Notes under the pieces: model-generated | What the model was told of the DNA's origin: nothing | Seen by the model: only the letters and a program-made list of their open reading frames with translations | Databases searched by the model: none | In this document: in pieces, positions 1 to 49,733 of the stretch | How the letters are laid out: the number at the start of each line of letters is the position of its first letter | Position numbering within the stretch: position 1 is the first letter of the stretch | Assembly (NCBI GenBank): GCA_012729315.1 | Contig: JAAYDI010000013.1 | Span: 1-64,000, forward strand | Source: Planctomycetaceae bacterium | GTDB taxonomy: Bacteria > Planctomycetota > Planctomycetia > Pirellulales > Pirellulaceae | DNA: 64,000 nucleotides | Direction: 5' to 3' | Position numbers and translations under genes: made by a program

Positions 1-213
1 GAAGAGGCGGGGTCCCAGATGTAATCTACAGAGGCGGGGTAGAAGGCGCACAGAGCGGCGGGGTACCGCGGGGTCAAATAATCCGAACCGTTGGCCGCTT
101 AATCCTGTCAGCTAATTTGCGCCGTCGCAACTTCCTTTGAAAAACCCTTAAGCGAAAGACGGACTAGTTTCTCTCGATAGGCGTAGGATGAACCAGCCTG
201 CGCCACGAAGAGT

Positions 214-591
214 CTACGGCGTTACGTCCTCCTTGCTGCGAATGCGATCTCCCCCGCCTTTGACCGCACTTCGATTCGGGCACGAACTGCCAAAGGTAAA
301 GGCGTTGACTCTGCCGTCGTCCCACGACACGCCGTTTGGGACACCCACTACGAAACGCACACGCACGTCCACATGAACCAAGCGCCACAGCGGTGCGTGG
401 AGGAGAGGGTCACTGCTCGCCGAGAAGTCCTGGTTGATCCACGCCGCCCGGTGGATGAAAGGTGCGAGCGACTTGCAAGGCAGCACGAAGAAAGAGTGCG
501 CCAATGGAGGCAGTTCCCAAACTGAAAACCGCAAGGGCTGGCGGAAAACCCAGCCGCCGCTGTGTGTGAGAGGCCAGACTTCAATTCGATT
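214..591 (-). pseudogene. unrecognised protein-like fragment
   Basis: This frame is open from just after an in-frame TGA (592-594) to a TAG at 214-216. It has no good ATG start, only an internal TTG at 534. The translation looks protein-like, with stretches such as SVWELPPLAHSFFVLPC and HVDVRVRFVVGVPNGVSWDD, and uses mixed third positions rather than the G/C-only third positions of a shadow frame. I do not recognise a family. It could be the end of a decayed gene or chance. Its neighbours do not help, since the surrounding kilobase is otherwise empty. Confidence 0.3.
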
Positions 592-954
592 TCAGCCCCA
601 CGAAGATTCGGGACGTAAGTTTCCTGACGACTTTGTTGTGGAAAGGAACTTGCGATGCCGAATCGACTCACGATGTCGAAGCCCGTCCATAGCTGGCATG
701 TCGTCCGGGGGAGACTCTGCAATCGCCGAGTTCACGGAACTCGATAGGCGCTCCCGACCGCTCAATTCAGTCTATCTCGTTGCCCATGCACCAGCCAGCT
801 TCCCTGCCTCACTGCCGGCAAGAGGGTTGATCCATCAATGTGCCCCTTTGCGGAGTTGCGTGGTGAGCAATTTTTTGGCTGGCCGCCTACTGGCAGATCA
901 CGCCAAACTGGAAAAAACTCGGTTTCCGTAACTGGCAGATTTACAGCCACTTCC

Positions 955-11070: not shown

Positions 11071-11199
11071 GGCGATTACCTGTGGCAGAGGAAGAGAAAG
11101 GTTGGTTTCAGAGTTTCTGCATTGTAGTACGGCCGCTGTCCCGTGACACGTCGGCGCTTACCGCCAGTCCTGGCACCGACACACACTCTTCACGCTCTT

Positions 11200-12714: not shown

Positions 12715-12757
12715 ATCGTACCACCGCGTGTTCGGGAACGTTGCCAGACGATCAATC

Positions 12758-12802
12758 GACTGGGCATCAGTCCACTGGGCATCAATCCACTGGGCCGGGG
12801 CG
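12758..12802. repeat. 15-nt tandem repeat between genes
   Basis: GACTGGGCATCAGTC, CACTGGGCATCAATC and CACTGGGCCGGGGCG lie head to tail across the end of the LamG/di-haem gene and the gap before the decarboxylase. Confidence 0.6.
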
Positions 12803-15800
12803 GACCACCGTGGGTGCGGTCTTGATGCGCGGCCGGATCGACAGCCAGTCCACTCCCTGGAACACCGGGTCCTCGATCTCCCGCACCTCCTCGGCACCCA
12901 GGTATGGACACATCGCATCGACCCAGGCAATCAGCTTCTGGAGGGACACCGGATCGACCTTGACACCGTAGTGCTGGCCGGAGCCCGCGATGTCAATCAA
13001 GCGGCTGTTGTAGGACAGGTAGGTCATGGGGGGCGTCGTCACGTAGGCGGCCGGATCGCGCGTGTCATAGCCCTCGACCATGATCATGTTGGCGATCCCG
13101 AATCCGGGCGGCGGATCCTCCGGCTTCTGATACGGTGCGCCCCAGCTGGGGTTGCCCGTCAGCAGCATGTACGTCTCATCGAAGCCCAGGAACCCTGGCC
13201 GGGCGGTCAGATCGAGCACGGCGCGCGCTTCACCGTCCCCTGCGTGGCATTCGGCGCAGTATTGATCCAGCACCGGCCGCACGAATCGCGGATAACTGAC
13301 CGATTCCTCGCCCCAGGGTGGCGGCGTGATTGTGCATGGTTCGCTGGCCAGCGCGAGACTATTGGTGGAATGGGGATACCGTGGGGTCCGGCTGTGGCTT
13401 TCGTGACAGCCCAGGCAGCCCCGCTCCTCGCCCGGCATCACACCGGTGAAGCTGCGCATGGTCTGCAGAGCGCGGAAGTGTTCATCGAGCAGCTGGAAGT
13501 GCAGTGCCTGGCCCGACGGAGCCTGGAAGGCGACCGAGCCATCCGGTTCGATCGGCACGGTGCCCAGAATCCGCTTCACCCCTTCACTCTGCACCAGCGA
13601 CACGACGGGGCCGGTGGAGAGCGCCGGGCGTTTGTGCCAGTACGTGTAGGTCTTCGGCTCGATGTTCAGCACCCGCAGGTAGCGGGCCTTGCCCTGCAGC
13701 ACCTCCGGCGCGCCCTCGTACACGTTGCCGCTGAACAGGACGCCCGGCTTGGGGGCGTGCCGTTCCTGCACCGTCGGCCAGGCGACCCGATCGACCAGCA
13801 CGGGTGGCACGGGCCGCGGCCGCACCGGCATGGCATGCAGGATGTTGTGGACCCCTTCGTAGACCAGCTCGCGATTCCCGTCCACATCCATCAAGTACAG
13901 CACGAACTTGCCGTTGCGGTTGGCCGACACCAGGAAATCCTGCTCGCTCAGCGGATAAGGCGAGTAGTAGGCCACGTAGCTGCCGCTGACGTGATAGGTC
14001 TTCGATTCGATCGGATCCACTGGCCCGTTCCCGCACTCCGGCCACTCGACATCCGCGGTGATCTTCGTCAGGCCGTCCGGGAAGTTCAAGCCGCGGGCCG
14101 GATCGATCATGCCCACGGAACCGGCGAACCAGTCGTGGTGCGCGCTGCCGGTGAACATGATCCGGCGGGAGCCGGGAACCTGGCGGGCGTCTTTCAACAG
14201 ATCGGGCCAGACGCTCTGATTCCCCCACAGCGTGTTGACCTGGGTTCCGTCGGGGTTGCAGGTCCACAGTTTCTGCGCGCGCCAGAGCGGCTTGTCGGTG
14301 TATTCCCAGCGGGTGTAGATCACGCGGCCGTCGTCGAGCACCGAGGGCAGATAGTCCGGTTCGTTGTTCCGCGACACGAGGTAGATCTCCTTCCCGTCCG
14401 CGTTACATCGCGCCAGCACGAAGGCATTGGTCGGCGGCATGCACCGCACGTACGTGTGCCCGCGGGTCGTGGAGAACAGCAGGTGCCCGTCCGGCAGATA
14501 GATCGGATCCAGGTCGTCGTACGGCCCATCGGTCAACTGCCTGAGCCCGCTGCCGTCGATATTGATCTCGTATAGGTGGAACGATTTCTCGTTGTGCGGG
14601 TGGAAACAGAACAGCACCTTCTCGGCGTCCCACGACAGATCGGGGCGCCAGAACGCGCCGTGCAGCGGCGGCTGGGGCATCAGCTGCCGCAACTGGCCCC
14701 CTGGAGAGAGACCTTCGAGCACCAGAAGCCGGCCTCCGGGGACTGCCATATAGCCCAGGCGATGCCGCGTTTCGTGATTCCACTCGCTCCCGGCTGGGAA
14801 CGGCATGTCGACAAACAGCACCTGGTCGAAGTCAACCACCGGGTTCTGGAAGACAATTGAGCGTTTCACTTCCCGCACGCGGAAGTAGAGCGCCGGATCG
14901 CTGCCCTGCACCTGCTCCGCCAGCTGCCGCAGTTCGACGAGGGTCGTCAGTTCCCGCGTCAGATCGATCGGCTGAGCGCTGCTCCGCACGATCCGCAGAG
15001 CCAGCTCGCTGGTCCAGCGGATTTCGTCCAGGATGCGTTCGCGCGTCGGATTCCCGTCCGCCTGGTGCAGCCAGTCCCGCTGCAGCGTCTCGACCGTCTC
15101 CTGCTGCGTGAGCGCGCGGGTGACGGGGGTCTCGGGGCGCCGATAGGGAGCCACCGCTTCGGCGACAGCGGGACGCGGCTGGACCCGTCGGCCGGCGGCC
15201 AGCATGACCTCAATCCACGCCGGCGAATCGTCGGCCGCCGTACCGGCGTCCTTCAGCTGCGAGAACTGCGCGGCAATCTGCTGGCACTCGTCCCAGTAGG
15301 TCTGTTCCGCGGGGGTCAGCCGCCGGTGCTGCTCGTCCGTGAGCGGCTGGTACTCCAGCATCAGTTCCACGAGCCGGCCGGCCGTGGCCGCCAGCGCTTC
15401 ATGATTGTTGGCCGTGAGGTATTCCAGCGGTGAACTGCCCAAGGTTGCAATGTAGTCGTCGTAGTCGCGCGGGAAATCGGCCTTCATCTTGGCCAGGATC
15501 ACCCCCGCCAGCTCACGATCCGCCAGCGCATCCGGATGCTGCATCATCGTCTGCCGGAAACTCACCAGCGTCGCGGCGAACGTCTCGCGCGGCTGGTAGT
15601 ATTCAGCGGCCGTCTGCTCCAGCTCCTGGAACCGCTCGGCGAGCGACGCGATGCCCTGGTCGTAGAGCCCGCGCACCTCGGCAGCCGTCAGAGCGCGCTG
15701 GTAGATGCGCAAATCGTCCAGCGCCCCCTGCAGATGCTCGCTGGTCCCACTACTGGACGCGATGAACGCCGGCACGTCCTTGTTGACGGCGATCACACCG

Positions 15801-37243: not shown

Positions 37244-40200
37244 ATGCGTTGCCGCACCATCCAGGTCATCACGTTTCTTGCGCTGTCGCATGTGTTCTCC
37301 ACGGTGTGTCTCCGCGCCGACGACTGGCCCACGTATGCGCACGATGCGTGCCGGAGCGGGGCCACTGAGCAGTCGCTCAGCCTGCCGCTGGTGGAGCGGT
37401 GGACGCATCGGGCGGATCACGCGCCAACGCCCGCCTGGCCGCCCCCGGCCCGCCACGACTACTATCATTACAAACAGGATCTGCAGCCCCGTGTGACCTA
37501 CGACCACGCCTACCACACGGTGATCGCTGGCGGCCGGATCTTCTACGGAACCTCGACGGACGACCAGATCGTGTGCCTTGATGCGGCCACCGGCCAGCGC
37601 TGCTGGTCGTGTTTCACCGAAGGGCCGGTACGGTTGGCTCCGACGGTTGTGGGGGACCGGTTGTATGCGGGGTCGGACGACGGGTGCGTGTACTGCCTGG
37701 CGACTGCCGACGGCCGGGTGCACTGGCAGACCCGCATCGGCCCGGCGGACAGCCGCTGCATCGGCAACGGCCGGATCGTATCCCGGTGGCCGGTTCGCTC
37801 CGGCGTGTTGGTGCGTGACGGCATCGCCTACTGTGCGGCCGGCATGTTCCCCGGCAGTGAAGGGGCATTTCTGGTTGGCCTGGACGCCACCACCGGATCG
37901 TGCGTATTGCGTGCGCCGATCGAGCAGTCCGCCCAGGGTTACATGCTGCTGGCGGGCCGGCAGTTGCTGCTCCCGTCCGGCCGGACCTCGCCGGGCGTCT
38001 ATGATTGCCAGGACGGCAAGCGGCTGGGGGTCCTGTCGAGTCCGGGCGGCGCCTACACGGTCGTCACGGAGGACCTGGTAGCGACCGGACGCGGCGATAC
38101 ACTCGACGAACTGTCGATCCTGGAGCCGGCGACGCGCGAGCAGCTGATCACGTTCGATGGGCGGCACCTCATTGCTCACGGCACGCGGCTGTTCGTCCAG
38201 AACCGCACGCACCTGTCAGCGCTCGACCGCGGCAAGTTCCTGCCGTTGGCGCGCGAGCACGCCGTACTGCGCAACCAATTGGCCGCGCTGGAGAAACGCA
38301 AAGACGAGGCGGCCAGCGCCGAGGCGGCTGGCGTCAAGGCCCGACTCGCGGAACTGAAGGCCGACATGCACACCTGCTGGGTCTGGCGCACGCCGTGCCC
38401 GCATGTCGAATCGCTCATTCTGGCCGGCGACACGTTGTTTGCCGGCGGCCAGACGGAGGTGGCCGCTTACAGCGCAGCGGACGGACAGCAGCTCTGGACC
38501 GGTGCCGTGGAGGGCCGCGCCTGCTCACTGGCCGTCGCTCAAGGACAACTTGTTGTCAGTACAGACGCGGGGGTGATCCAGTGCTTCCAGGCCTCGGATC
38601 CGGCCGTGCAGCCGCCCGCCGCGGTGAGCGATGCGGCGCCGGGCGCGGCAGCGGCCGGCGCAGCCCCCACTGCGGATCCGGCGGCGGCAGACCAGGAGCT
38701 GGCGCGCACGCTGCTCGCCCAGGCTCAGGCCGATCAGGGATTCGGCCTGATCCTCGGAGCGCGTCACGCCGGGCTGCTGCCCGCGTTGGCCGCGCACTCG
38801 CGGCTGCACCTGACCCTGGCCGACTCCCATGCGGAGACGATCGAAGCCCTGCGGCCCGCGCTCGCACAACAGCTGCCCTACGGCGTGCGTGTGTGCGCGC
38901 ACCAGGTGGCCAGGACCGCGCTGCCCTATCCGGCATATTTCGCCAACCTGCTGCTGGTCGATCCCGGCGCGATGCCTTTGAGTGCGGAAAACGTCGCGCA
39001 GATTCACCGCGTCCTGCGCCCGGAAGGGGGCAGCGCCTGGATTGGTGGCTTTGCCGCGGCCGAGTCTGCCAGCGTGGAGGCCTGGACCACGGCACTCTCC
39101 GGCGACGGTCTGACGGCGCGGACCGTGGCCCTGCCGGGCACAACCTGGATCCAGGTCACACGCGGCCCATTGGATGGTGCCGGCCAGTGGACACACGGTT
39201 TCGCCGATCCCGCCAATACGGCGTGCACGATGGACCAGCATGTGCACGGCCCCCTGCGGGTCCAATGGTATGGCGAGCCGGGCCCAAGGCTGATGGCCGA
39301 TCGGCACCACCGCAACGTGCCGCCACTGTACAAGGCCGGCCGGATGTTCGTGCCCGGCGACAATCTGGTCATCGCGGTCGACGCGTACAACGGCACCAAC
39401 CTGTGGCAGCGCGACATCCCACAGTCGCTGCGCCTCGGGGCGTTCCTGGACTGCAGCAACTACGTCGTGGACGACCGGGCGCTCTATGTTGTGGCCGGCC
39501 CCACATGCCATGAGCTGGACGTGGTCACGGGGGCTACGATGCGCGAACTGGCGATGCCCGACCAGGTGGCCGATGAGCCGCGGCAGTGGGGGTATGTGGC
39601 GCGGGTCGATGAGCTGCTGATCGGCAGCCAGTGCCGACCGGGGGCGGCGTATTTCGAACAGAGTCGGGAGGCGGACTTGGCCTTGTGGTATGACAGCATG
39701 TCGCTCGTCACCAGCGACACGCTGTTCGCCTTGAATGTCCAGGACGCCTCGCGGCGCTGGCGCTACCAGTCCGGTCTGCTGCTCAATACCACGATCACCA
39801 TTGGCGGCGGACGCCTGTACGTGCTGTCGAACCACAGTCCGGCAGCTCTGGAGAACCGCCAGGGGCGGATGCCGATGAGCACGTTCCTGGAGGGCCCCAA
39901 TTTCCTGGTCGCGCTGGACCTGCAGACCGGTAAGGAGCTGTGGAAGATACCGCTGAGCCTGGAGAATTACCGGCACATCGCTTACACGAACTACGCGCAA
40001 GAGAAACTGCTCGTCAGCGGCAATCGCTACATCGACAACAAGCTCTGGTACTTCTTCGAGATGCTCGATGCCGCCACCGGCCAGACGTTGTGGACGGCTG
40101 GGCACAATACGCTCTACGATCCGCGGGGTGGACATGGCGAACAGAATCGCCATCCCACGATCGTGGGCAACACGGTCTATACCTACCCCCTGGCGTACGA

Positions 40201-40489
40201 CCTGCACACGGGTCAGCAGCGGGAGGGGTGGAAGTTCGATCGCCTGGGGCATGGCTGCGGCAATGTCTCGGCGTCGGCCGGCAGTCTGTTCTGGCGCGGC
40301 GGCAACCCTTGGCAATGGGACCTCGGACCGGACGGGCAGGCCCGGCGGATCAACACGGTCTCGCGCCCCGGCTGTTTCATCAACATGCTGCCGGTCGGTG
40401 GGCTGCTGTTGATTCCCGAGGCCAGTTCCGGATGCACCTGCGCCTATCCGTTGCAGACGTCGCTGGCGTACGTGCCGGAGGGGGTGTAG
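37244..40489 (+). CDS. exported beta-propeller / methyltransferase-like / beta-propeller fusion
   Basis: A 1081-residue protein with a signal peptide (cleavage near CLRAD). The N-terminal part (about 30-460) has PQQ-like propeller blades such as IVCLDAATGQRCWS and VYCLATADGRVHW. Residues about 470-640 resemble a SAM methyltransferase fold (GFGLILGARHAGLLPAL, then YFANLLLVDPGAMPLSAENV and HRVLRPEGG), but the glycine-rich SAM loop is degenerate. The remainder (about 690-1081) is a second propeller set (VIAVDAYNGTNLWQRDIP, LVALDLQTGKELWK). AAGGAGG seven bases upstream gives a firm start. Being exported, it is unlikely to methylate with SAM; the inserted domain may be structural. It converges on the redox operon. 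Confidence 0.85.
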   Translation: MRCRTIQVITFLALSHVFSTVCLRADDWPTYAHDACRSGATEQSLSLPLVERWTHRADHAPTPAWPPPARHDYYHYKQDLQPRVTYDHAYHTVIAGGRIFYGTSTDDQIVCLDAATGQRCWSCFTEGPVRLAPTVVGDRLYAGSDDGCVYCLATADGRVHWQTRIGPADSRCIGNGRIVSRWPVRSGVLVRDGIAYCAAGMFPGSEGAFLVGLDATTGSCVLRAPIEQSAQGYMLLAGRQLLLPSGRTSPGVYDCQDGKRLGVLSSPGGAYTVVTEDLVATGRGDTLDELSILEPATREQLITFDGRHLIAHGTRLFVQNRTHLSALDRGKFLPLAREHAVLRNQLAALEKRKDEAASAEAAGVKARLAELKADMHTCWVWRTPCPHVESLILAGDTLFAGGQTEVAAYSAADGQQLWTGAVEGRACSLAVAQGQLVVSTDAGVIQCFQASDPAVQPPAAVSDAAPGAAAAGAAPTADPAAADQELARTLLAQAQADQGFGLILGARHAGLLPALAAHSRLHLTLADSHAETIEALRPALAQQLPYGVRVCAHQVARTALPYPAYFANLLLVDPGAMPLSAENVAQIHRVLRPEGGSAWIGGFAAAESASVEAWTTALSGDGLTARTVALPGTTWIQVTRGPLDGAGQWTHGFADPANTACTMDQHVHGPLRVQWYGEPGPRLMADRHHRNVPPLYKAGRMFVPGDNLVIAVDAYNGTNLWQRDIPQSLRLGAFLDCSNYVVDDRALYVVAGPTCHELDVVTGATMRELAMPDQVADEPRQWGYVARVDELLIGSQCRPGAAYFEQSREADLALWYDSMSLVTSDTLFALNVQDASRRWRYQSGLLLNTTITIGGGRLYVLSNHSPAALENRQGRMPMSTFLEGPNFLVALDLQTGKELWKIPLSLENYRHIAYTNYAQEKLLVSGNRYIDNKLWYFFEMLDAATGQTLWTAGHNTLYDPRGGHGEQNRHPTIVGNTVYTYPLAYDLHTGQQREGWKFDRLGHGCGNVSASAGSLFWRGGNPWQWDLGPDGQARRINTVSRPGCFINMLPVGGLLLIPEASSGCTCAYPLQTSLAYVPEGV

Positions 40490-40569: not shown

Positions 40570-42165
40570 TCAGTCGGCGGCGCAGCGGTCTTCGGGGTGC
40601 GTGGTCGCATGCCGCGCGAATTGCAGCGCGGCGGTAGGGCAGGCGGCTACACACTCGGCCGCCACCTTCGACAGTGCCGCGTCCATATCGCCGCCGAAGG
40701 GGACGCGCAGCTTGACGTCGAACCCGCGGCCGACGAAGGTCAGGCCCAGCGGCTCCTGCGCTCCGGCCGCGATCTTGACGCACAGCTCGCACTTGATGCA
40801 CTTGCCCGGCTCAAACAGCACCGCAGCGTGCCGGCCGATCACTTCGTAGGGTCGGCGCTGACCTTCATACCGGGTGGCATCCGCCTGATAGAGGATGGCA
40901 TAGCGTTCCAGTTTGCAGCTCCCATGCGCCACACAGCCGCAGGCGAGGCAGCGGTTCGACTGCTCGGCGGCCGCCGCGTCGGAATACGTTTCTCCGGCGG
41001 CGGGCGTGCTGTGGCAGGCTGCACCGGCCCCTGCCAGGAACTCCTGCATCTCGTCCGACGTCAGCCGATGGATGCGGGAGGAGAACGGCCGGCCGGGACC
41101 GCGCACTGCGCGGCCCGACACGTACTGATCCATGGTCTGCGCGGCTTCCTTGCCGTCGGCCGTGCTGCGGACGACCAGCGCCTTGCGCCGGAAGATGTTC
41201 CCGGCCGCGAACAGGCCGGGACGCTGTGTCTGATAGGTATTCCGGTCCACTTCGATGCCGCGTCGCGTGGCGGCCAGCCCCCAGGCCGCAATCTGCTCCG
41301 GCTCCACGGCGCCGCAGGCCAGCAGCACGGCGTCGAACGAATCGCACAGCCGGTCCAGATCGGCCTGGTCCGCCACTGCCGTGTTCCAGCGTGTCTCGAC
41401 GCCCAGGCGCAGGATCTGGGCGATCTCAGCCTCCAGCACCGCAGCCGGCAACTCCTCCGGCGTCGGCTCGGTGCGCAGGCGTCCCCCCGCCTGCGCTTGC
41501 CGGTCAATCAGCACGCAGGCGTGTCCCAGACGCCGCAGGTAATACGCGGCAGCCAGGCCGGTCGGTCCGGCGCCGACAATCGCCACGCGTTTCCCGCTGT
41601 CGGGCTGGCACGCAGGCTGGTACGGATCGCCGCTGGCCAGATCCGCATCCGCGACGAAGCGTTTCAACTCGCAGACAGCCACGGGGTTGTCGGCGGCATT
41701 CCGCCGGCAGCCTTTTTCGCAGGGCTTTGGGCAGACGCGTCCCAGCACGGCCGGCAGGGCGATGTCCTGTTTGATCGTCGCGATCGCCTCGCGCAAATTG
41801 TGCTCGCCGATCTGCCGCAGCATCAGCGGGATGTCCATGTGCGCGGGGCAGGCGAAAAAGCACGGGGCGAGGCAGTCACCGACATGGTCGCTCAACAGCA
41901 GTTCCAGCGCCGTGCGCCGCATGGCGCTGACCGCTTCCGTCGCGTTGTCAATCTCCATCCCATCCACGACGCGCGTGGCGCAGGCCGGCACATACTGACC
42001 CGTCTGCCGGTTCCGCACGACGCACACCAGGCAGGAGGTCGACGGTTCGTAGCCCTGGAGGAAGCACAGCGCCGGGATCTCGATGCCGAGTTTCTCCGCG
42101 GCCTCCAGGACCGTGGCGCCGGCAGGCACCTCCACTTGCTGACCGTCAATCGTAAGAGTGGGCAT
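40570..42165 (-). CDS. GltD-like FAD/iron-sulfur oxidoreductase with NuoG-type ends, lacking the NAD(P) domain
   Basis: A 531-residue multi-domain electron-transfer protein. Residues 1-75 form a plant-type [2Fe-2S] domain like the N-terminus of NuoG and HydA (Cys 34, 45, 48, 62). Residues 90-160 carry the GltD-type cysteine helices (CLAPCFFACPAHMDIP, RVCPKPCEKGCRR). The FAD motif VGAGPTGLAAAYYL is at 197-210. The chain then passes from FDAVLLACGAVE directly to the terminal FAD strand RPGLFAAGN (about residues 278-323), so the usual pyridine-nucleotide domain is absent. The end has [4Fe-4S] ligands (CLACGC, CIKCELC, ECVAACP). It is last in the operon and probably takes electrons from the NuoEF-like protein. 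Confidence 0.85.
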   Translation of the reverse strand: MPTLTIDGQQVEVPAGATVLEAAEKLGIEIPALCFLQGYEPSTSCLVCVVRNRQTGQYVPACATRVVDGMEIDNATEAVSAMRRTALELLLSDHVGDCLAPCFFACPAHMDIPLMLRQIGEHNLREAIATIKQDIALPAVLGRVCPKPCEKGCRRNAADNPVAVCELKRFVADADLASGDPYQPACQPDSGKRVAIVGAGPTGLAAAYYLRRLGHACVLIDRQAQAGGRLRTEPTPEELPAAVLEAEIAQILRLGVETRWNTAVADQADLDRLCDSFDAVLLACGAVEPEQIAAWGLAATRRGIEVDRNTYQTQRPGLFAAGNIFRRKALVVRSTADGKEAAQTMDQYVSGRAVRGPGRPFSSRIHRLTSDEMQEFLAGAGAACHSTPAAGETYSDAAAAEQSNRCLACGCVAHGSCKLERYAILYQADATRYEGQRRPYEVIGRHAAVLFEPGKCIKCELCVKIAAGAQEPLGLTFVGRGFDVKLRVPFGGDMDAALSKVAAECVAACPTAALQFARHATTHPEDRCAAD

Positions 42166-42188: not shown

Positions 42189-44546
42189 TTATGAAACGAC
42201 ATCCACGGCCTGCATCGGGCAGACCTGGCGGCACGTATCACAGCGCGTGCAAAGGTCCATGTTCACTGCGTGCCGCCGGTAAGGGGTAAGAGGGATGGCG
42301 TGAACGGGACAGTGCTGGGCGCAGAGCGTGCAGCCGATGCACGCCTGGTTGATCTCGTAGCGAATCAGGGCGGCGCACTTCCCGGCGGGGCACTTCCCCT
42401 GCAGGTGCGCCTCATACTCGTCGCGGAAGTACTTGAGCGTGGACAGCACGGGGTTGGGGGCGGTCTTGCCCAGCCCGCAGATGCTGCCGGCCGCCACGCT
42501 GTGCGCCAGCTGCTCCAACTGCTCCAGATCGCCCGGCCGACCCTGGCCGGTGCAGATGCGGTCCATGATCTCCAGCATCCGCTTCGTGCCGATGCGGCAG
42601 AGGGTGCACTTGCCACACGACTGCTCCTGCGTGAAACGCAGGAAGTAGCGCGCGATATCGACCATGCAGTCGGTGTTGTCGAGCACGACCAGCCCGCCGC
42701 TGCCCATGATCGCTCCCACCTGCACCAGCGCTTCGTAGTCCACTGGCGTGTCCGCGAGCGAGGCGGGAACACAGCCGCCGGACGGCCCGCCCACCTGCAC
42801 CGCTTTGAACGTGCGTCCCGGCAGCGCGCCACCGCCGATGTCGTAGACGATCTGCCGCAACGTGATGCCCATCGCCACTTCGATCAGGCCGCCGCGCACG
42901 ACCTTGCCGGCCAGCGCAAACACCTTCGTGCCTTTGCTGGCGCCGGTACCCAGCTGTGCGAATTGGTCTCCGCCGTGCCGGAAGATCCAGGGCAGGCAGG
43001 CCAGCGTCTCCACATTGTTGATCAACGTCGGGCGATCCCACAGTCCGGTTTCCACCGGGTAGGGCGGGCGCAGCGTGGGTGTGCCGCGGCGTCCTTCCAG
43101 GGAGTTGATCAGCGCGGTCTCTTCGCCACAGATGAACGCGCCCGCACCTTCCGCCACGCGGAACTTCACGTTCAGGCCGCTCCCCAGGATCCCGGCGCCG
43201 ATCAGCGCGTGTTGTTCACACCGCTCGAGCGCCTCCCGGATGCGCGCGACGGCCAGCGGATACTCGTCGCGGATGTAGAAGATCGCTTCCTGCGCGCCGA
43301 TCGCGAGCGCGGCGATGGCCATCCCTTCGATCACACGATAGGGGAAGGACTCGAGCAGCATGCGGTCCATGAAGGCACCGGGGTCCCCTTCGTCCCCGTT
43401 GCAGACGACGTACTTCGTGTCGCCGGCGGCAGCTCGCGCCTTCTGCCACTTGATATACGTCGGGAAGCCTCCGCCGCCACGTCCCCGCAGGCCGCTCCGC
43501 CGCACTTCGTCCACGATCGACGGGGGATCGAGTTCGCGGAGGCATCGTCGCAGCGCGGCGAAGCCGTCGTGCCGCAGGTACTCGTCCAGGTCCAGCGGAT
43601 CCAGGTCGCCGCAGCATTCGGTGGCAATGTGCTTCTGCGGCCCGAGAAAGCCGCACACGGCTTGTCCGCCCACATCCAGCGCGTGCGACTCCACCGCGTC
43701 GTCTGCTTCGTTGGAGTAAAATGCGTCCAGCCACCGCGCGAACCGGTAGCCGAGCCGCCGCACCAGTCCGGGCGGGCGGAAATGCCGCAGCACAATGCTC
43801 CGCACATCCTCCGGCCGCACGTGCGAGAAGAACCGCGATTCGCCCGCTGGCGTGATCAGCTGCACCAGTGGCGTCTGGTGGCACATGCCGATGCAGCCGA
43901 CACGTTTCACCGCCGCGGGCGCCCCCGATTCGCTCAGCACCGCCAGGATCTCATCGTGCACCCGGCCGCTCCCCTGCGCCTGGCAACAGGAACCCAGCCC
44001 GATCCGGATCTCACCCAGTTCGCCCGGTCGCGAATTGGGTGCGGGGCGCGCCGCGGCGGGTGGCGCGCTGCGCGCATGCCGCTCCTCGGCCACCATCTGC
44101 GGGACGCTCCGCGGGCTCACCCGCCCGTACGTCACGTCGTCGATCTGCACGACCGGCGCCAAGGTACAGCAGCCCAGACAGGCGACCGACTGGAGCGTGA
44201 ATTCGCCGCGCGCGTCCGTGTCCTGGCCGGGGGCCAGCCCGAGGTGCAACGCCACCGCATCGCGCACCAGCTCCGCGCCCTTCACGTGGCACGCCGTCCC
44301 TTCGCAGACGTGAATCACGTGCCGCCCCACCGGCTGGTGGCGGAAGTGCGTGTAGAACGTTGACACCCCCGTGATGTCGGCGGGCGTAATTTCGGTCAGC
44401 TCACACACGCGCATCAGCGCGGGCTGCGGCAAATAGCGGTAGTGGCGCTGGATCGCCTGCAGGATCGGAACGACGGCCTCGCGCCGCGTACCGCACTGGA
44501 CGACAATCTCGTCCACGTAATTCAAGTCAAGCTCGGATCTGATCAT
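42189..44546 (-). CDS. fused NuoE-NuoF-like NADH-binding flavoprotein
   Basis: A 785-residue protein. Residues 1-150 are NuoE-like with a [2Fe-2S] site (CEGTAC at 81-86, CLGCC at 123-127). Residues about 180-245 form a second thioredoxin-type [2Fe-2S] domain (GSCCQAQG, CIGMC). The rest is NuoF-like: GLRGRGGGGFP and GDEGDPGAFMDR for FMN and NADH, CGEETALINSLEGRRG, and CGKCTLCRIGTKRM for the N3-type cluster. The end has two ferredoxin clusters (CIGCTLCAQHCP, CTRCDTCRQVCP). This resembles HydB/HndC of NAD(P)-linked and electron-bifurcating enzymes, with NuoE fused on. ATG at 44546; 25 bases after the propeller gene, 23 before the GltD-like gene. Confidence 0.9.
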   Translation of the reverse strand: MIRSELDLNYVDEIVVQCGTRREAVVPILQAIQRHYRYLPQPALMRVCELTEITPADITGVSTFYTHFRHQPVGRHVIHVCEGTACHVKGAELVRDAVALHLGLAPGQDTDARGEFTLQSVACLGCCTLAPVVQIDDVTYGRVSPRSVPQMVAEERHARSAPPAAARPAPNSRPGELGEIRIGLGSCCQAQGSGRVHDEILAVLSESGAPAAVKRVGCIGMCHQTPLVQLITPAGESRFFSHVRPEDVRSIVLRHFRPPGLVRRLGYRFARWLDAFYSNEADDAVESHALDVGGQAVCGFLGPQKHIATECCGDLDPLDLDEYLRHDGFAALRRCLRELDPPSIVDEVRRSGLRGRGGGGFPTYIKWQKARAAAGDTKYVVCNGDEGDPGAFMDRMLLESFPYRVIEGMAIAALAIGAQEAIFYIRDEYPLAVARIREALERCEQHALIGAGILGSGLNVKFRVAEGAGAFICGEETALINSLEGRRGTPTLRPPYPVETGLWDRPTLINNVETLACLPWIFRHGGDQFAQLGTGASKGTKVFALAGKVVRGGLIEVAMGITLRQIVYDIGGGALPGRTFKAVQVGGPSGGCVPASLADTPVDYEALVQVGAIMGSGGLVVLDNTDCMVDIARYFLRFTQEQSCGKCTLCRIGTKRMLEIMDRICTGQGRPGDLEQLEQLAHSVAAGSICGLGKTAPNPVLSTLKYFRDEYEAHLQGKCPAGKCAALIRYEINQACIGCTLCAQHCPVHAIPLTPYRRHAVNMDLCTRCDTCRQVCPMQAVDVVS

Positions 44547-44571: not shown

Positions 44572-46425
44572 TTAGTGCGTACCGATGCAGAACAGGTGTG
44601 TCTGGCCGCGAATGTAGATCCGCCCAGGCTGAAACGCCGGGCTGGAGCGGATCGGTTCCCCCATCTCGAACTCTCCCACACGCTGGCACGCGTCCGCCTG
44701 CGGCTCGAGGATCCACGCCTTACCCTCCTCCGAAAACACATAAACGCTCGAACCCACCTGACTGGGCGAAGACGACACTTCCTCCAGCATGTCCTCCTCC
44801 CAGAGCGGCTCTCGCGGGTCGGCATCCAGCCCGGGCGTGGTCCCCGGTGCGCGATCGAAGCAGGCCAGCATGCCGTGCGCCATCAGCAGCAGATACTTGT
44901 CGGTCGCCAGCGGACTGCAGACGTCCGGCACGCCGATGTCGGTGTACCACTGGACGTGTGTCTCCGTGACGTCACCGCTGCCGTCAGCGCGGACCGCCGC
45001 CATGCCGCTCGTTTCGTTGGCCGCGTACACCACACCGTCGACGCACACGGGGGATGGGCCGATCTCCCCTCCCAGGCACTTGGCACGCCAGAGTTCGCTG
45101 CCGTCGACCGGCGAATACGCGATCAGCCACGGATCGACGCACGTAATCACCATCCACCGCCCATCGTGCTCCACGACAATCGGCGACGACCAACTGCTGG
45201 GCACTTCGCGTTTGACTTCCCACACCGGGGTGCCTGTGGCGCCATCGAGTGCAATGAGTCGGGACAGCCCCTCTTCCTTGCGCCCCTGATCGAACTGGAT
45301 GATCAGGCGGTCGTTGTACGTGGCGAGGGAACTCGCGTGACCGTAGTGGTTCTGGGGTGTCCCCAGATTCTGGTGCCACTGTTCTTCCCCTTGCAGACTC
45401 AGCGCGATCACATCACCCGTGGCGAAGATCGCGTACACGCGGAGCCCGTCGGTCGCCATCGTCGGCGCTGCATACGACGTTGCCTCCATCACTTCCAGTT
45501 CCTTGCCGTCCGGCCTGGTGGGAGGCAGGTCGTGCCGCCACACCAGTTCACCGCTGGCCGCCGCGAAACAGAACACCGCCTGCTCTTCCGCCGTCGCCCC
45601 GGACAGAAATACCCGATCCTGCCAGACAATCGGCGAGTTGGGGCCCGGCAAGGGCACCTCCGTCTTCCACATAATCCCCGCGTTGTCCGGCACACTCCAC
45701 GTGGTGGGAATGTCCGTGTAGGCGGACACCCCTGATCCGGACGGGCCGCGGAACCGCGGCCACTGCTGCAGGTACTCGGCGTACGACGGCAGGGGAGCTA
45801 CCGGCTCCGCTGTACCGGCAGGCTCCGTCTCTGCTGCATCGGCCGATTTCGTCTCCGCCGGTGTCACCGGCGCCTGGGTGTCCGCCGTATTCGGCAGCTG
45901 CGCCGCGGGACCGGCCGCTGGCGCGGCGGCCAGTTCTTTCGGACCGGACGGCACAATCGGTTCCGCGCGCAGCGCGAAACCGCACAACACGGTGGCGACG
46001 ACCAGCACCACACCGACGGTCGCCCAGCGGGCGTAGCGCTGCGCCAGAGATTCCGCGTCGTGCTCGGGGTCCACCGGCCCCGGCAGGTACGTCGTGCCGC
46101 GTACGGCCACCGCCCAGCGCGCCGCGAGCAGCGCCAGCGTCAGGCCGCCCAGCATCAAGTAGGTGCCCATCGCCATGAACCGGCGTTTGCGGAAGTACGT
46201 GTCGCGCAGCAGCAGATCCAGCGCGCGGATCTGCTGCTGTATCTGCGGGTCGCCCGGCTGGTCCCTGAGCTGCTGCTTCAGTTCGAGGTAGGCCGGGGTG
46301 TCGAACAGCTCGTACGTGCCGCGACCGGCATAGTCCATCGCCATCAAGAGCCCGACGGCGAGCGAGAAGACGGCGGCGACGACTGCCGTTCCTACAAGCG
46401 TGGGATAGCGCACGGAGATACTCAT
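44572..46425 (-). CDS. membrane-anchored PQQ-like beta-propeller protein
   Basis: A 617-residue protein. The N-terminal 160 residues have three hydrophobic helices (LVGTAVVAAVFSLAVGLLMA, YLMLGGLTLALLAARW, WATVGVVLVVATVLCGFAL) with a charged loop between the first two. An Ala/Pro/Thr-rich linker leads to a propeller from about 210 (WPRFRGPSGSGVSAY, LIALDGATGTPVWEV, LIAYSPVDGSELWR). The propeller should lie outside the cytoplasmic membrane. WPRFRGP is the common start of planctomycete PQQ-like propellers. There is no evidence that PQQ itself is bound. The ATG at 46425 has AGGAG eight bases upstream and overlaps the stop of the gene before it (ATGA). Confidence 0.88.
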   Translation of the reverse strand: MSISVRYPTLVGTAVVAAVFSLAVGLLMAMDYAGRGTYELFDTPAYLELKQQLRDQPGDPQIQQQIRALDLLLRDTYFRKRRFMAMGTYLMLGGLTLALLAARWAVAVRGTTYLPGPVDPEHDAESLAQRYARWATVGVVLVVATVLCGFALRAEPIVPSGPKELAAAPAAGPAAQLPNTADTQAPVTPAETKSADAAETEPAGTAEPVAPLPSYAEYLQQWPRFRGPSGSGVSAYTDIPTTWSVPDNAGIMWKTEVPLPGPNSPIVWQDRVFLSGATAEEQAVFCFAAASGELVWRHDLPPTRPDGKELEVMEATSYAAPTMATDGLRVYAIFATGDVIALSLQGEEQWHQNLGTPQNHYGHASSLATYNDRLIIQFDQGRKEEGLSRLIALDGATGTPVWEVKREVPSSWSSPIVVEHDGRWMVITCVDPWLIAYSPVDGSELWRAKCLGGEIGPSPVCVDGVVYAANETSGMAAVRADGSGDVTETHVQWYTDIGVPDVCSPLATDKYLLLMAHGMLACFDRAPGTTPGLDADPREPLWEEDMLEEVSSSPSQVGSSVYVFSEEGKAWILEPQADACQRVGEFEMGEPIRSSPAFQPGRIYIRGQTHLFCIGTH

Positions 46426-47732
46426 GCAGGGGGCTCCTCGACCATTTCGGACACATCCTGGATCAACCCCAGACGCACAAGCTCCACCGGACATGACTGG
46501 AAACAGCGCCCGCACGACACGCAGCCAGCCTGCTGGGGGCGATAGTCGGTGCGGCGTCGGCGGATCGAGAGCTGCACCAGCTTGACGCTCAGCACCACAC
46601 CCACCCAGGCGCCGAACCAGCCTCCGATCCGCACGAAACGCTGCTGCCACGCGTACGCTTCGCCTTCCAGCAGCGAGAGCGGCTGACCGGTATTGCGGTA
46701 CGCATCGCTGGCGTCCGTCGTGCCGTCTGCAAGCCCCCGCTCCTCCTGACAAATCTGATCCCAGAGACGCACGGTCGGATGAAAACGCGACAATGGGACG
46801 GCCCACCAGGTGCCAATCCAGGCCAACAGCCCGATCGCCAGAGGCGCCACGGCCAGGACCCACAGCAAGTTCCGCTTGCCCTGCATGCGCTGCCGGGCTG
46901 TCTGAGGGACCGTCGGCGGATGGATGGCCCCATAGGGACACGCGTCCTCGCACAGCCGGCACTTGATGCATTCCCCGGGCACGATCCGCAGGTGCCACTT
47001 CGCCACGCGCGACAACAGGCCCAGCAGTGCCCCATAGGGACAGAGGTAGCGGCAGTAGGGGCGGCCCACAATGCCCGCCACGATCAGCATACAGACGCCG
47101 AACACCAGCATGTGTACATTGCCGTTGAGCCGGAAAAAAGCCACGAACGGATCGTAGCGGCAGATGATGAACGCCGTGCCGGTCGCGGCGAAGATCACGG
47201 CCGCTCCCAGATAGAAAAACGGCAGCAGTCCGAGAGACTCGTCCAGCCACCGGGGCACCTTCAGGCTGCGCACGGCCACGATCTCCTGGATCGCCCCCAG
47301 GGGACAGACACTGGCACAGAACGTACGCCCGAAGAAAACAGTGAACAGCAGCGGCAACACGAAAAAGAGCGCGACGCCGGCTGGCAGCAGGTAGGTCGGC
47401 TCCGCGCAGGCCAGCGCCACGTTCTGCAGCGCGCCGATCGAGCAGATGCAGCCGTCGCGGATGAAACCGAACCAGACCAGGCAGGCGACACTCAGCACGA
47501 GCAGGTGGCGACGCGACCGGCTGACCAGCGCGAAGTAGCTGGCCAGAATCAGGGCGACGCACAGCAGCCCGACATCCACCCACTGCCAGTACGACGGGTC
47601 CCCGTGCGGCACCTCGGCTGTGGGAATCGCGTGGTTGGAAAACGTCGGTGTGGGAATCAGCTCCCCGGCCGCTGTGGACGCCCACAGTACGGCAACTGCC
47701 CCCACACATCCGGTCCTGACCCGCATCGTCAT
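46422..47732 (-). CDS. NapH/NosR-like polytopic iron-sulfur membrane protein
   Basis: A 436-residue membrane protein with a signal or first helix and about five further helices. It carries the paired CX3CP motifs of the NapH/NosR/RdxA family (FCASVCPLGAIQ, YCRYLCPYGALLG) and two [4Fe-4S] ferredoxin motifs (CIKCRLCEDACPYGA; CVSCGRCFQSCPVEL near the C-terminus). This family passes electrons from quinol or cytosolic donors across the membrane to periplasmic iron-sulfur proteins. There is no N-terminal FMN-binding domain, so it is closer to NapH than to full NosR. Its ATG overlaps the stop of the polyferredoxin gene before it (ATGA), and its own stop overlaps the propeller gene. Confidence 0.9.
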   Translation of the reverse strand: MTMRVRTGCVGAVAVLWASTAAGELIPTPTFSNHAIPTAEVPHGDPSYWQWVDVGLLCVALILASYFALVSRSRRHLLVLSVACLVWFGFIRDGCICSIGALQNVALACAEPTYLLPAGVALFFVLPLLFTVFFGRTFCASVCPLGAIQEIVAVRSLKVPRWLDESLGLLPFFYLGAAVIFAATGTAFIICRYDPFVAFFRLNGNVHMLVFGVCMLIVAGIVGRPYCRYLCPYGALLGLLSRVAKWHLRIVPGECIKCRLCEDACPYGAIHPPTVPQTARQRMQGKRNLLWVLAVAPLAIGLLAWIGTWWAVPLSRFHPTVRLWDQICQEERGLADGTTDASDAYRNTGQPLSLLEGEAYAWQQRFVRIGGWFGAWVGVVLSVKLVQLSIRRRRTDYRPQQAGCVSCGRCFQSCPVELVRLGLIQDVSEMVEEPPA

Positions 47733-48376
47733 GGCTGATATACCTGCTGGAGGAGCGCGCGGGCGGCCACGTTGGCCGGATCGCTGGCCTTCTGCCGGAT
47801 CAGCGCCAACGCCTGTTGCTTGACACGGTACGGTGTCTCCTGCGGAATGCGTTCGAAGGCCAGGCTCGGGCACGACACGGCGATGGCGCATTCGTTGCAA
47901 TTCTTGCACAGATCGTGCATCACCTGCAGATAGAGCGAGCCGTTCATCAGCGCACACCCTTTGACGCAGACACCGCAGCCAATGCACAGAGTCCGCTCGA
48001 TCGTGTACTCGTAGAACCGCTGCCCCGCTTGCTCCTCGATCAGCGTACGGACGATCGCCCCCGTGGGGCACAACTGGTTCTCGGCCGCCGTGTCGACGCG
48101 CTCGTACTGCGCGTCCAGATACCCTGTGCAGATGTCGCAGTACCCACACATCTCAAAGCACTGCACACACCGGACCGCCGATTCGTCCAGCACACAGTTG
48201 GTGGCGCACTTGCCGCAGCCGACACACTTGTCGGGATCGATCTGCCAGCGCAGTTCGGTGGCCCGTCCCTTGGCACCCGCCAGGAACCCTGTGCCGGTAC
48301 CGAGCGCCACGGCACCGGCGACACGGGCCGTGTCCATCAGAAAACGGCGCCGATCCAACGACTGCTGTTCGGCCAT
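47729..48376 (-). CDS. Tat-exported polyferredoxin (NapG-like)
   Basis: A 215-residue protein with a twin-arginine signal (SLDRRRFLMDTARVAGAV) and about four [4Fe-4S] binding sets: CVGCGKCATNC, CVQCFEMCGYCDIC, CIGCGVCVKGC and CKNCNECAIAVSCP. It should fold with its clusters in the cytosol and be exported whole to the periplasm, where NapG-type proteins receive electrons from NapH-type partners, here the next gene. AGGAGG seven bases upstream sets the ATG at 48376, which overlaps the stop of the 77-residue gene before it by one base. Confidence 0.9.
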   Translation of the reverse strand: MAEQQSLDRRRFLMDTARVAGAVALGTGTGFLAGAKGRATELRWQIDPDKCVGCGKCATNCVLDESAVRCVQCFEMCGYCDICTGYLDAQYERVDTAAENQLCPTGAIVRTLIEEQAGQRFYEYTIERTLCIGCGVCVKGCALMNGSLYLQVMHDLCKNCNECAIAVSCPSLAFERIPQETPYRVKQQALALIRQKASDPANVAARALLQQVYQP

Positions 48377-48609
48377 CAGTGGTCCTCCTGCAGTGCCTGT
48401 GCCGCACGAGCGGTTGCCGCGCGTGGCACAGCACAGCGCGGCAGCCAACCACAGGATGCACAAGCGCGCGTCGTCTCCGGGCAGCGCCGGATCTGCCCCC
48501 GTCCGGCCAGCACACCCGTTGCTGCCGCCAGCGCGCCCAGCACGGCGCAGCGCCCGCAGCTGGCCAGCCACGCGCGGCGAGGAAGTTCGTGCACGGCACT
48601 CGGTTTCAT
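48376..48609 (-). CDS. 77-residue twin-arginine-like cysteine protein
   Basis: A small protein with a basic start (HELPRRAWLASCGRCAVLG), a hydrophobic stretch ALGALAAATGVLAG-like that could be a Tat or Sec signal, and a C-terminal cysteine cluster, CPETTRACASCGWLPRC. GGAGGG nine bases upstream supports the ATG at 48609, and it overlaps both neighbours by 1-4 bases, so it is a real, coupled gene. I do not recognise a named family. The cysteine arrangement could hold a metal or cluster, or form disulfides, perhaps assisting the adjoining polyferredoxin. Confidence 0.75.
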   Translation of the reverse strand: MKPSAVHELPRRAWLASCGRCAVLGALAAATGVLAGRGQIRRCPETTRACASCGWLPRCAVPRAATARAAQALQEDH

Positions 48610-49733
48610 GATTGCGGTCCCTCCGCCCCCTTCGGATAGAACACCCGCACGCATCGTTCGAATGCGTCCAACACCAGGATCGCCCCGTCCGGCGCGACTG
48701 CCACGTCGAACACCCGTGCGACAGACTCGCCCCGCGCATCGACCAGCGACGACGCCCTCACGCCCAGGCCGCGCGCACCGACCACCACATGCTGAAACTC
48801 GCCGCTCTCCGAATACACCTTGATGCGTGGAATGCCCTTCTCCGACGTCACGAACCGGCCGTCGGGCAGCAACGCCAGGTGCGCTGGATTGCAGCAGCCG
48901 AAGAAGCCCGCCACGTCAGCGCCGGCCCGCCCCCACAGCGACTGCAGCTCCCCCGTGAACGAATACGACTCGATCCGCCGCATGCCCGGATTGACCACCC
49001 ACAATGTCTCATCCGGTCCCACCGCCAGGTCGAAGTAGGCACTCGGAATCACAAAACCCGGCATGCTCCGGTCCGGATCGACCGTCCCGATCTGCCCTGC
49101 CGGACGCCCCTCCCGATCCAACACGTGTACCACGCGCTGACCGGCGTCGGCTACGAATACGCGCTGCCCGCCGACGGCGATCGCTGTCAGCACGGCCTGC
49201 GGACCGAAGTCCGGCCACGCACCGATCGCTTGCCCGGTGCCATCGAGCACCAGCACCTGGCGGCGGCAGCCGACGTAGATCCGTCCCGACTCGTCCGTCG
49301 TCGCCGGCTCCACCGCCAGGCAGGTCGGCGTCTGGTCGAGCGGGATGGTCGCTAACACCTCGCCGGCCGAGCTCAACCGGACCACCGCCTGATCCCCCGC
49401 GACCAGGATCGTCCCGTCCGCGCTGGTGGTCAGTGCTTGCGGCCGCTCGAGCGCCGTCTCGAACTGTGCACGCTGGACATACGCTACCAGCTCGGGCGGA
49501 ATCTCGGCCTGCTCCTGCAGATCCAGCTCAAAACGGCGCGGTGTCGCATCCGCGCGTTCCCCCCATGTGTCGAGACGCGACAGGGCCAACACGGCGACCA
49601 CGAGCGCCACAGCGATCACGGCCACCAGGATCCGGCTGCCGGTCCGGACCGGCCGGCTCCCGGTGGGCGGCACCGCATCCGCCATCTGACTCGACTTGTG
49701 CACATCGTTCACATTGTTCATGTCGTTCTTCAT
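48606..49733 (-). CDS. membrane-anchored NHL-type beta-propeller protein
   Basis: A 375-residue protein. A polar N-terminus of 33 residues is followed by one transmembrane anchor (ILVAVIAVALVVAVLALSRL), then an NHL/six-bladed propeller from about residue 90 with blades such as RPQALTTSADGTILVAGDQ, VFVADAGQRVVHVLDREG and VFDVAVAPDGAILVLDAFERCVRVF. The propeller faces outside. It contains FFGCCNPAHLALLPDGRF, a Cys pair in a blade. It overlaps the next gene (ATGA) and follows the first propeller gene by ten bases, so it is part of the redox operon, perhaps as a scaffold or sensor. Confidence 0.85.
   Translation of the reverse strand: MKNDMNNVNDVHKSSQMADAVPPTGSRPVRTGSRILVAVIAVALVVAVLALSRLDTWGERADATPRRFELDLQEQAEIPPELVAYVQRAQFETALERPQALTTSADGTILVAGDQAVVRLSSAGEVLATIPLDQTPTCLAVEPATTDESGRIYVGCRRQVLVLDGTGQAIGAWPDFGPQAVLTAIAVGGQRVFVADAGQRVVHVLDREGRPAGQIGTVDPDRSMPGFVIPSAYFDLAVGPDETLWVVNPGMRRIESYSFTGELQSLWGRAGADVAGFFGCCNPAHLALLPDGRFVTSEKGIPRIKVYSESGEFQHVVVGARGLGVRASSLVDARGESVARVFDVAVAPDGAILVLDAFERCVRVFYPKGAEGPQS

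Follow-up and report, generated by a model that had tools for sequence, protein, structure and literature searches.

The window analysed here, a 64,000-nucleotide stretch of a Planctomycetaceae bacterium (contig JAAYDI010000013.1), carries eight closely packed genes on its reverse strand (Table 1). With the starts chosen here, these genes overlap by 4, 1, 4 and 4 bases and otherwise lie 10-25 bases apart. They encode a GltD-like subunit (BfuA), a NuoE-NuoF fusion (NuoEF), a NapH-like membrane protein, a Tat-type ferredoxin (TATFer), a small Cys-containing protein and three beta-propellers. Convergent with this operon, positions 37244-40489 encode a 1081-residue PQQ-propeller-like protein, the middle of which, judged by its motif, resembles a methyltransferase.

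Table 1. Genes of the operon and regions of BfuA, in window coordinates.
Feature	Position	Strand	Basis
BfuA/GltD-like subunit, 531 aa	40570..42165	-	FAD half-domains kept, NADPH domain absent
BfuA residues 1-98, NuoG-like [2Fe-2S] domain and H94	41872..42165	-	PF13510 at residues 3-75, conservation
BfuA residues 99-177, GltD-type Fer4_20 cluster domain	41635..41871	-	Pfam, conservation
BfuA residues 190-286, first half of FAD domain (GAGPTG, D221, GG227-228)	41308..41598	-	model, alignment
BfuA residues 283-319, junction; insertion point of the NADPH Rossmann domain in NfnA/StnC/NfnB	41209..41319	-	alignment, model
BfuA residues 317-350, second half of FAD domain (GLFAAGN...)	41116..41217	-	model, alignment
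BfuA residues 400-520, C-terminal NuoG/Nqo3-like cluster domain	40606..40968	-	Pfam, model, alignment
NuoE-NuoF fusion, 785 aa, BfuC+BfuB-like	42189..44546	-	Pfam, PDB alignment, conserved Cys
PQQ-like beta-propeller, three N-terminal hydrophobic segments	44572..46425	-	Pfam, segment prediction
NapH-like polytopic Fe-S membrane protein	46422..47732	-	two 4-Cys cluster motifs, CxxxCP motifs
TATFer, twin-arginine-like start (RRRFL), 16 conserved Cys	47729..48376	-	Pfam, conservation
Small Cys-containing protein, RR-containing N-terminus	48376..48609	-	homologue in few loci
NHL-type beta-propeller, N-terminal hydrophobic segment, GCCNP motif	48606..49733	-	Pfam, conservation
PQQ_2-type beta-propeller, N-terminal hydrophobic segment	49744..51177	-	Pfam, conservation

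Domain architecture of BfuA

The original prediction described BfuA as a GltD-like subunit without its pyridine-nucleotide domain, in which the sequence passes almost directly from one half of the FAD domain to the other and no second GxGxxG is seen. This description holds. The frame encodes 531 residues with zero internal stops, FDAVLLACGAVE occupies residues 277-288, RPGLFAAGN follows at 315-323, and GAGPTG (198-203) is the single GxGxxG motif. Pfam places Fer2_4 at residues 3-75, Fer4_20 at 100-177 and an FAD-type Rossmann fold from 192-196, while NuoG/Nqo3-type matches at 83-99 and 454-514 are weak and below the cut-off.

In the PDB, the BfuA subunits of NfnABC (9bov_A, 9n5u_A) and of Stn (8oh5_C) come closest to BfuA, with E from 7e-95 to 1e-87. 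When BfuA is aligned to 9bov_A with phmmer, residues 4-298 match 6-299 and residues 278-514 match 427-671, so that ~127 residues of 9bov_A (~300-426, the NADPH Rossmann domain) are without a counterpart. The NCBIfam profile NF009454 (PRK12814; 657 positions) hits BfuA as two separate stretches (379.7 bits, under the curated cut-off of 916). L140, a 704-residue relative from the same operon type that has kept the domain, served as positive control for detecting an intact NADPH domain with this profile, and is hit as one stretch, 1-634.

An AlphaFold2 model built on a 60-sequence input (pLDDT 92.7, pTM 0.88) contains no second Rossmann domain. Between the strands at 279-282 and 318-320, the sole listed element is a helix at 289-294. 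In VIA-align, 512 of the 531 model residues fit 3..679 of 9bov_A from Caldicellulosiruptor (Z 39.5, rmsd 2.4), which leaves no room for such a domain; 508 residues fit 9n5u from Thermococcus sibiricus (Z 38.5) and 512 fit StnC (Z 37.8). This confirms that BfuA is collinear with NfnA and StnC, without the NADPH Rossmann domain, and the original prediction thereby stands up to the structural check put forward with it. It also ends approximately where the FdhF-like half of StnC (683-1172) would start, and the C-terminal ~250-500 residues of the NfnABC/Nfn-Bfu proteins are missing. With NfnB/NfnL and GltD, BfuA shares the FAD domain and the cluster motifs (253 residues on 48..472 of P. furiosus NfnL, 5jfc_L; Z 30.7), but it has neither their central NADPH domain nor an arginine at the position of R201 (P. 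furiosus). NuoG-type clusters had been predicted at both ends, and indeed 205 residues spanning 1..519 fit 10..216 of 5xf9_B (Z 22.0), chain B of an NAD-reducing hydrogenase, presumably HoxU.

A homologue without the insert, 80% identical to BfuA, is present in a genome of the same genus, and near full-length homologues of this kind occur in 10 of 60 related genomes, own genome included (45-80% identity, the window itself apart). Scanning a single genome for each species yielded 232 BfuA relatives, of which the best 80 were kept as loci, a sample biased towards window-like proteins. Open frames of 514-610 residues are found in 77 of these best 80, the frames of L031, L067 and L082 being broken or cut. 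Of the 80 titles, 71 denote Planctomycetota or groups inside it, including several strain-labelled Planctomycetota records. The other nine are titled Kiritimatiellia, Aminicenantes (2), Caldithrix, Verrucomicrobia, Actinomycetes (2), Nealsonbacteria and unspecified bacterium, and MAG taxon labels can be wrong.

BfuA was aligned with 59 of the best 80 loci; L031, L067 and L082 were omitted for their broken or cut frames and 18 further loci for space. The segment between the FAD halves (283-318) has 36 residues in 54 of the 60 sequences and 32-44 in all of them. A frameshift or assembly artefact as the source of the missing domain is ruled out by this common gap. That the truncation stems from sequencing or annotation, or that another subunit supplies an NADPH site, is very unlikely: we found nothing in its favour, and the other operon proteins scanned gave no Pyr_redox or NAD_binding match (Pfam, E up to 0.1).

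The FAD part is kept, as had been predicted. All 60 aligned sequences keep the GxGxxG glycines, GG227-228 and an acidic residue at 221, and from these motifs BfuA is predicted to bind FAD. Equally invariant are the [2Fe-2S] cysteines C34, C45, C48 and C62 and Cys 98, 102, 106, 145, 149, 153, 406, 409, 411, 456, 459, 462 and 509, with Cys 417 and 505 in 59/60. K168 is present in 60/60 and C165, three residues ahead of it, in 58/60. K168 aligns by phmmer with StnC K170 (StnC numbering from PMC10482914), which, according to that paper, ligates the FAD-proximal cluster C7. StnC R239, the equivalent of the N5-contacting R201 in NfnB, corresponds to BfuA 238, where the window has E and only 2/60 sequences have R. 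StnABC of Sporomusa ovata (8oh5) resembles the window in its NuoG-GltD-NuoG layout, this lysine and a BfuBC-type core, but differs in that the window has I112 in place of C114, E238 in place of R239, an extra C165, and no NADPH or FdhF-like domain.

The NuoE-NuoF fusion and the adjoining membrane genes

NuoEF consists of two PF01257 stretches, an FMN domain, an NADH_4Fe-4S domain and a C-terminal dicluster. The SLBB-type family PF10531, which we take to be the BfuB SLBB domain, reaches 16.1 bits against a cut-off of 27, and 9bov_B and 8oh5_B can be aligned across this region with no large gap. Matches above cut-off are PF01512 (2e-44), PF10589 (2.8e-34) and PF14697 (1.5e-9), families that we assume to be the counterparts of the BfuB InterPro domains of PMC9304861. 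The closest PDB chains are StnB, NfnB and HydB (E 3e-207 to 8e-182), with the NuoF-type chain 9bov_B as the best match; the alignment takes in the N-terminal thioredoxin-like 2Fe-2S domain and runs from the FMN domain through the C-terminal dicluster. In the BfuC-like NuoE part (PF01257, residues 12-154), C81 and C86 are conserved in 62/62 and C123 and C127 in 64/64 sequences. Where the match was long enough (65 loci), every sequence has C188, C218, all four cysteines of NADH_4Fe-4S and the eight at the C-terminus; position 222 holds C in 55 of them and S in the other 10.

According to Schut et al. 2022 (PMC9304861), non-bifurcating homologues lack clusters B2-B5; the additional clusters missing from such homologues are an N-terminal 2Fe-2S and the C-terminal dicluster. 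Since NuoEF keeps the cysteines of these clusters, it is a Bfu core by anatomy, with the clusters predicted from cysteines. The original prediction had electrons arrive through NuoEF, as in electron-bifurcating assemblies. The core domains and cysteines for this are in place, and the electrons could run in either direction. Alternatively, NuoEF might belong to an NADH dehydrogenase that does not bifurcate and passes its electrons to quinones or to exported acceptors. Several carriers are labelled Pirellulaceae (e.g. Rhodopirellula, Stieleria), whose cultured relatives are mostly aerobes, and ferredoxin-linked bifurcation is less expected in aerobes. The retained cluster cysteines and the presence of [FeFe]- and Hox-type hydrogenase-like genes in the same genome both point the other way, and we regard this alternative as unlikely.

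Elsewhere in the genome, contig C115 (L237, 4242-9423) encodes a 592-residue HydA-like protein of the [FeFe]-hydrogenase type next to a 1115-residue HydB-GltD fusion with complete NADPH motifs (GGGNSAIDAA, YRRSREVMPA), a second positive control beside L140, and contig C2 carries a NuoF-type subunit near a protein resembling a hydrogenase small subunit; these protein names are assigned from sequence motifs. With an NADPH-type GltD domain elsewhere in the genome, together with hydrogenase-like genes, a ferredoxin-linked metabolism of the source organism is plausible.

NapH is a membrane protein that combines FCxxxCP and YCxxxCP motifs with 4Fe-4S motifs, and the NapH-like protein of the window has this pattern. 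Its C139, C143, C227, C231, C255/258/261/265 and C404/407/410/414 are invariant in 38 sequences. In TATFer, 16 cysteines are kept in 43-44 of 44 homologues, and the protein is expected to carry four [4Fe-4S] clusters. The pair resembles NapGH, in which a polytopic membrane Fe-S protein likewise stands beside a Tat-type multi-cluster Fe-S protein. However, both proteins score far under the curated cut-offs (42 bits against 213.05 for TIGR02163; 20.6 bits against 269 for the NapG-type NF007012), and no nitrate reductase was found among the operon proteins scanned with Pfam and curated profiles. A PDB fold search with the model of the NapH-like protein returned no match (best E 0.78), which has no bearing on novelty. 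In the NHL propeller, the GFFGCCNP motif contains C280/C281, present in 40/40 homologues.

Among the best 80 of the 232 BfuA relatives, 45 loci have at least 9.8 kb of upstream sequence. Homologues of NuoEF, the NapH-like protein, TATFer, NHL and PQQ2 are all present in 38 of these (L036, L056, L067, L074, L093, L095 and L102 are incomplete), and order and strand of all partner genes are identical in 38/38. NuoEF was found in 72 of the 80. Three loci without it start within 710 bases of a contig end (L059, L066, L080), and five lack it despite 2.6-10 kb of upstream sequence (L048, L049, L051, L073, L093). In two further genomes (L206, 8033-10021; L207, 7515-9398), the NapH-like protein and NuoE form one open frame, which we consider the strongest sign of physical linkage.

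These data also bear on the idea that the enzyme is soluble and linked to NADH and ferredoxin, its membrane and propeller genes being merely co-transcribed. Four loci with NuoEF and GltDx have room enough, yet no NapH or TATFer nearby (L056, L067, L074, L102), and three have GltDx with none of the partner genes nearby (L093, L048, L051), as would suit a soluble enzyme. Such an enzyme is hard to reconcile with the fixed gene order of the complete loci and with the NapH-NuoE frame, and we hold it to be improbable.

Domain loss in BfuA among relatives of the operon

A less biased sample than the best 80 was obtained with a TATFer search of 392 genomes of the phylum, which gave 38 loci in 37 genomes. 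BfuA is readable past the insertion point in 26 of them. The other 12 comprise L162, cut ahead of the insertion point, eight loci at contig ends (L141, L147, L148, L150, L154, L168, L170, L175), and three without NuoEF beside the TATFer or NapH gene: L156 and L161 have a NapH gene and no NuoEF within 7.7 and 4 kb, respectively, and L152, on an 8.4-kb contig, has TATFer without any other operon gene.

The NADPH domain is present in one of the 26 readable proteins, L140, with the motifs GGGNTAMD, YRRTVREMP, GIPAYRLPK and FAGGD. Eighteen, the window's among them, lack it but keep an intact FAD part. In six others the FAD part itself is altered: L163 and L167 have a shortened one, L159 and L169 a degenerate one, and in L157 and L164 it is deleted. 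In L142 the whole GltD part is missing, and NuoEF and BfuA share a 998-residue frame (11174-14170) that runs from NuoE and NuoF straight into a HoxU-like end. A search with the L140 protein revealed L206 and L207, where the NADPH domain has full length but lacks the YRR..EMP stretch. Judged from sequence, the operon relatives are a graded erosion, from an intact NADPH domain over a degenerate one to FAD only, no FAD and no GltD part.

In a quick NuoF tree with complex-I-type paralogues as its root, L140 and L206/L207 fall near the base, alongside FAD-only L210 and also L162/L173. With three outgroup rows (L218-L220, other NuoF paralogues) left out of the count, this tree needs two state changes, as L210 is sister to the NADPH-bearing L140 (SH-aLRT 90). 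Holding all domain-less rows together gives a better likelihood (AU p 0.85); this test put L162, with BfuA cut ahead of the insertion point, and L148, with no BfuA sequence, among the domain-less rows. Several independent losses are not claimed, since a single loss is not rejected by this test.

The residues next to the FAD follow the state of the domain in part. C165/K168 are replaced by G/H, A/H and A/H in the NADPH-bearing members, and both are lost in L157, L159, L163, L164 and L167, where the FAD part is deleted, degenerate or shortened. FAD-only L153, L165 (L/K), L172 and L210 do not have both. The Cys-Lys pair thus tends to accompany FAD-only, FAD-intact proteins, with exceptions, and the trend favours a working FAD-cluster pair in window-type BfuA.

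The same series raises the possibility that the FAD part is a relic, that electrons travel via the NuoG-like clusters only, and that the FAD domain is structural or empty in a GltD part that is vanishing. The relatives with degenerate, shortened, deleted or absent FAD parts fit this, as does the FAGGD aspartate, kept in just 16 of 60 aligned sequences; N replaces it in 26 and another residue in 18, the 44 replacements being N, G, S, C, T or A. The conservation of the FAD motifs, C165 and K168 in the alignment, and the disappearance of C165 and K168 where the domain is deleted or shortened, speak against it. We regard a relic as rather unlikely for window-type BfuA, while the FAD-less members suggest that some of the family can do without FAD.

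Proposed function and relation to known complexes

With the NADPH end gone, the core and most of the cluster chain left, and membrane and Tat Fe-S genes adjoining, BfuA is most simply read as the link between the FMN core and the membrane module. We lean towards BfuA being part of a membrane-linked Bfu complex that meets its third partner via this module instead of NADP(H). NuoEF would be the BfuBC core, where NAD(H) and ferredoxin exchange electrons at the FMN. BfuA would have descended from an NfnA/StnC-like NADPH-binding form and then lost the domain. In Stn, electrons follow the path NADPH-FAD-C7-C6-C5-C4-C3-B1-FMN (PMC10482914). In the window, the cluster chain of BfuA would join the FMN core to the NapH-like protein and the Tat-type four-cluster ferredoxin, and the third substrate would be a quinone or an exported partner, not NADP(H). 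FAD is probably bound in window-type BfuA, where it may act as a relay or a docking site by the proximal cluster, at which a Cys and a Lys are conserved. In one option, NADH and reduced ferredoxin would push electrons out; in the other, an exported donor would supply NAD and ferredoxin. The relatives that have lost FAD or the whole GltD part hint at contact with the third partner by way of the membrane module, and at some members doing without FAD. The interpretation given in the original prediction is partly supported, being incomplete on the NapH-like protein, TATFer and the relatives without an FAD or GltD part.

Several observations count against a membrane-linked Bfu complex: the low NapH and NapG scores and the missing PDB match of the NapH-like model; L152, L156 and L161, the five loci without NuoEF and the four without NapH or TATFer; and the FAD-less members together with the FAD-only proteins without the full C165/K168 pair (L153, L165, L172, L210).

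NfnABC/Nfn-Bfu, the closest relatives by structure, have the NADPH domain that is missing here, and NuoE and NuoF are fused and membrane genes present in the window. In Nuo-Bfu and Mbh-Bfu (PMC9304861), a BfuBC core is attached to a membrane module, as is proposed for the window. Their modules are built from proton-pumping subunits of complex-I-like or Mbh type, a place that the NapH-like protein, the Tat-type ferredoxin and the beta-propellers would take in the window. One of the unassigned BfuB clades of Schut et al. may contain this NuoEF type.

Anammox bacteria such as Kuenenia belong to Planctomycetota. The Rieske/cytochrome b complexes of Kuenenia with NAD(P) oxidoreductase (PMC12954380) are membrane complexes in which an FAD/Fe-S subunit resembling that of NfnABC is placed on the cytoplasmic face; a lysine lies close to its FAD-proximal cluster. 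They differ in that they contain Rieske/cytochrome b and multihaem proteins and have NAD(P) as proposed substrate. Among the open PMC titles and abstract beginnings listed in our searches, none described this operon or a domain-less NfnA.

A more specific proposal, which we put forward tentatively, is a transmembrane bifurcation complex with an NADP(H)-free BfuBC core that exchanges electrons with the exported side through the NapH-like protein and the Tat ferredoxin, with propeller partners. Within it, BfuA would have gone stepwise from an NADPH flavoprotein to a bare cluster wire.

If our reading of BfuA is right, a flavoprotein of the GltD group works, or is retained, without its pyridine-nucleotide domain. 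The occurrence of BfuA with an NADPH site, with FAD only, or with neither in one operon type would provide a natural test of the idea of Schut et al. Should the membrane link hold true, then bifurcation in Planctomycetota would be tied to a partner that is exported or sits in the membrane, with complex-I-like pumps playing no part.
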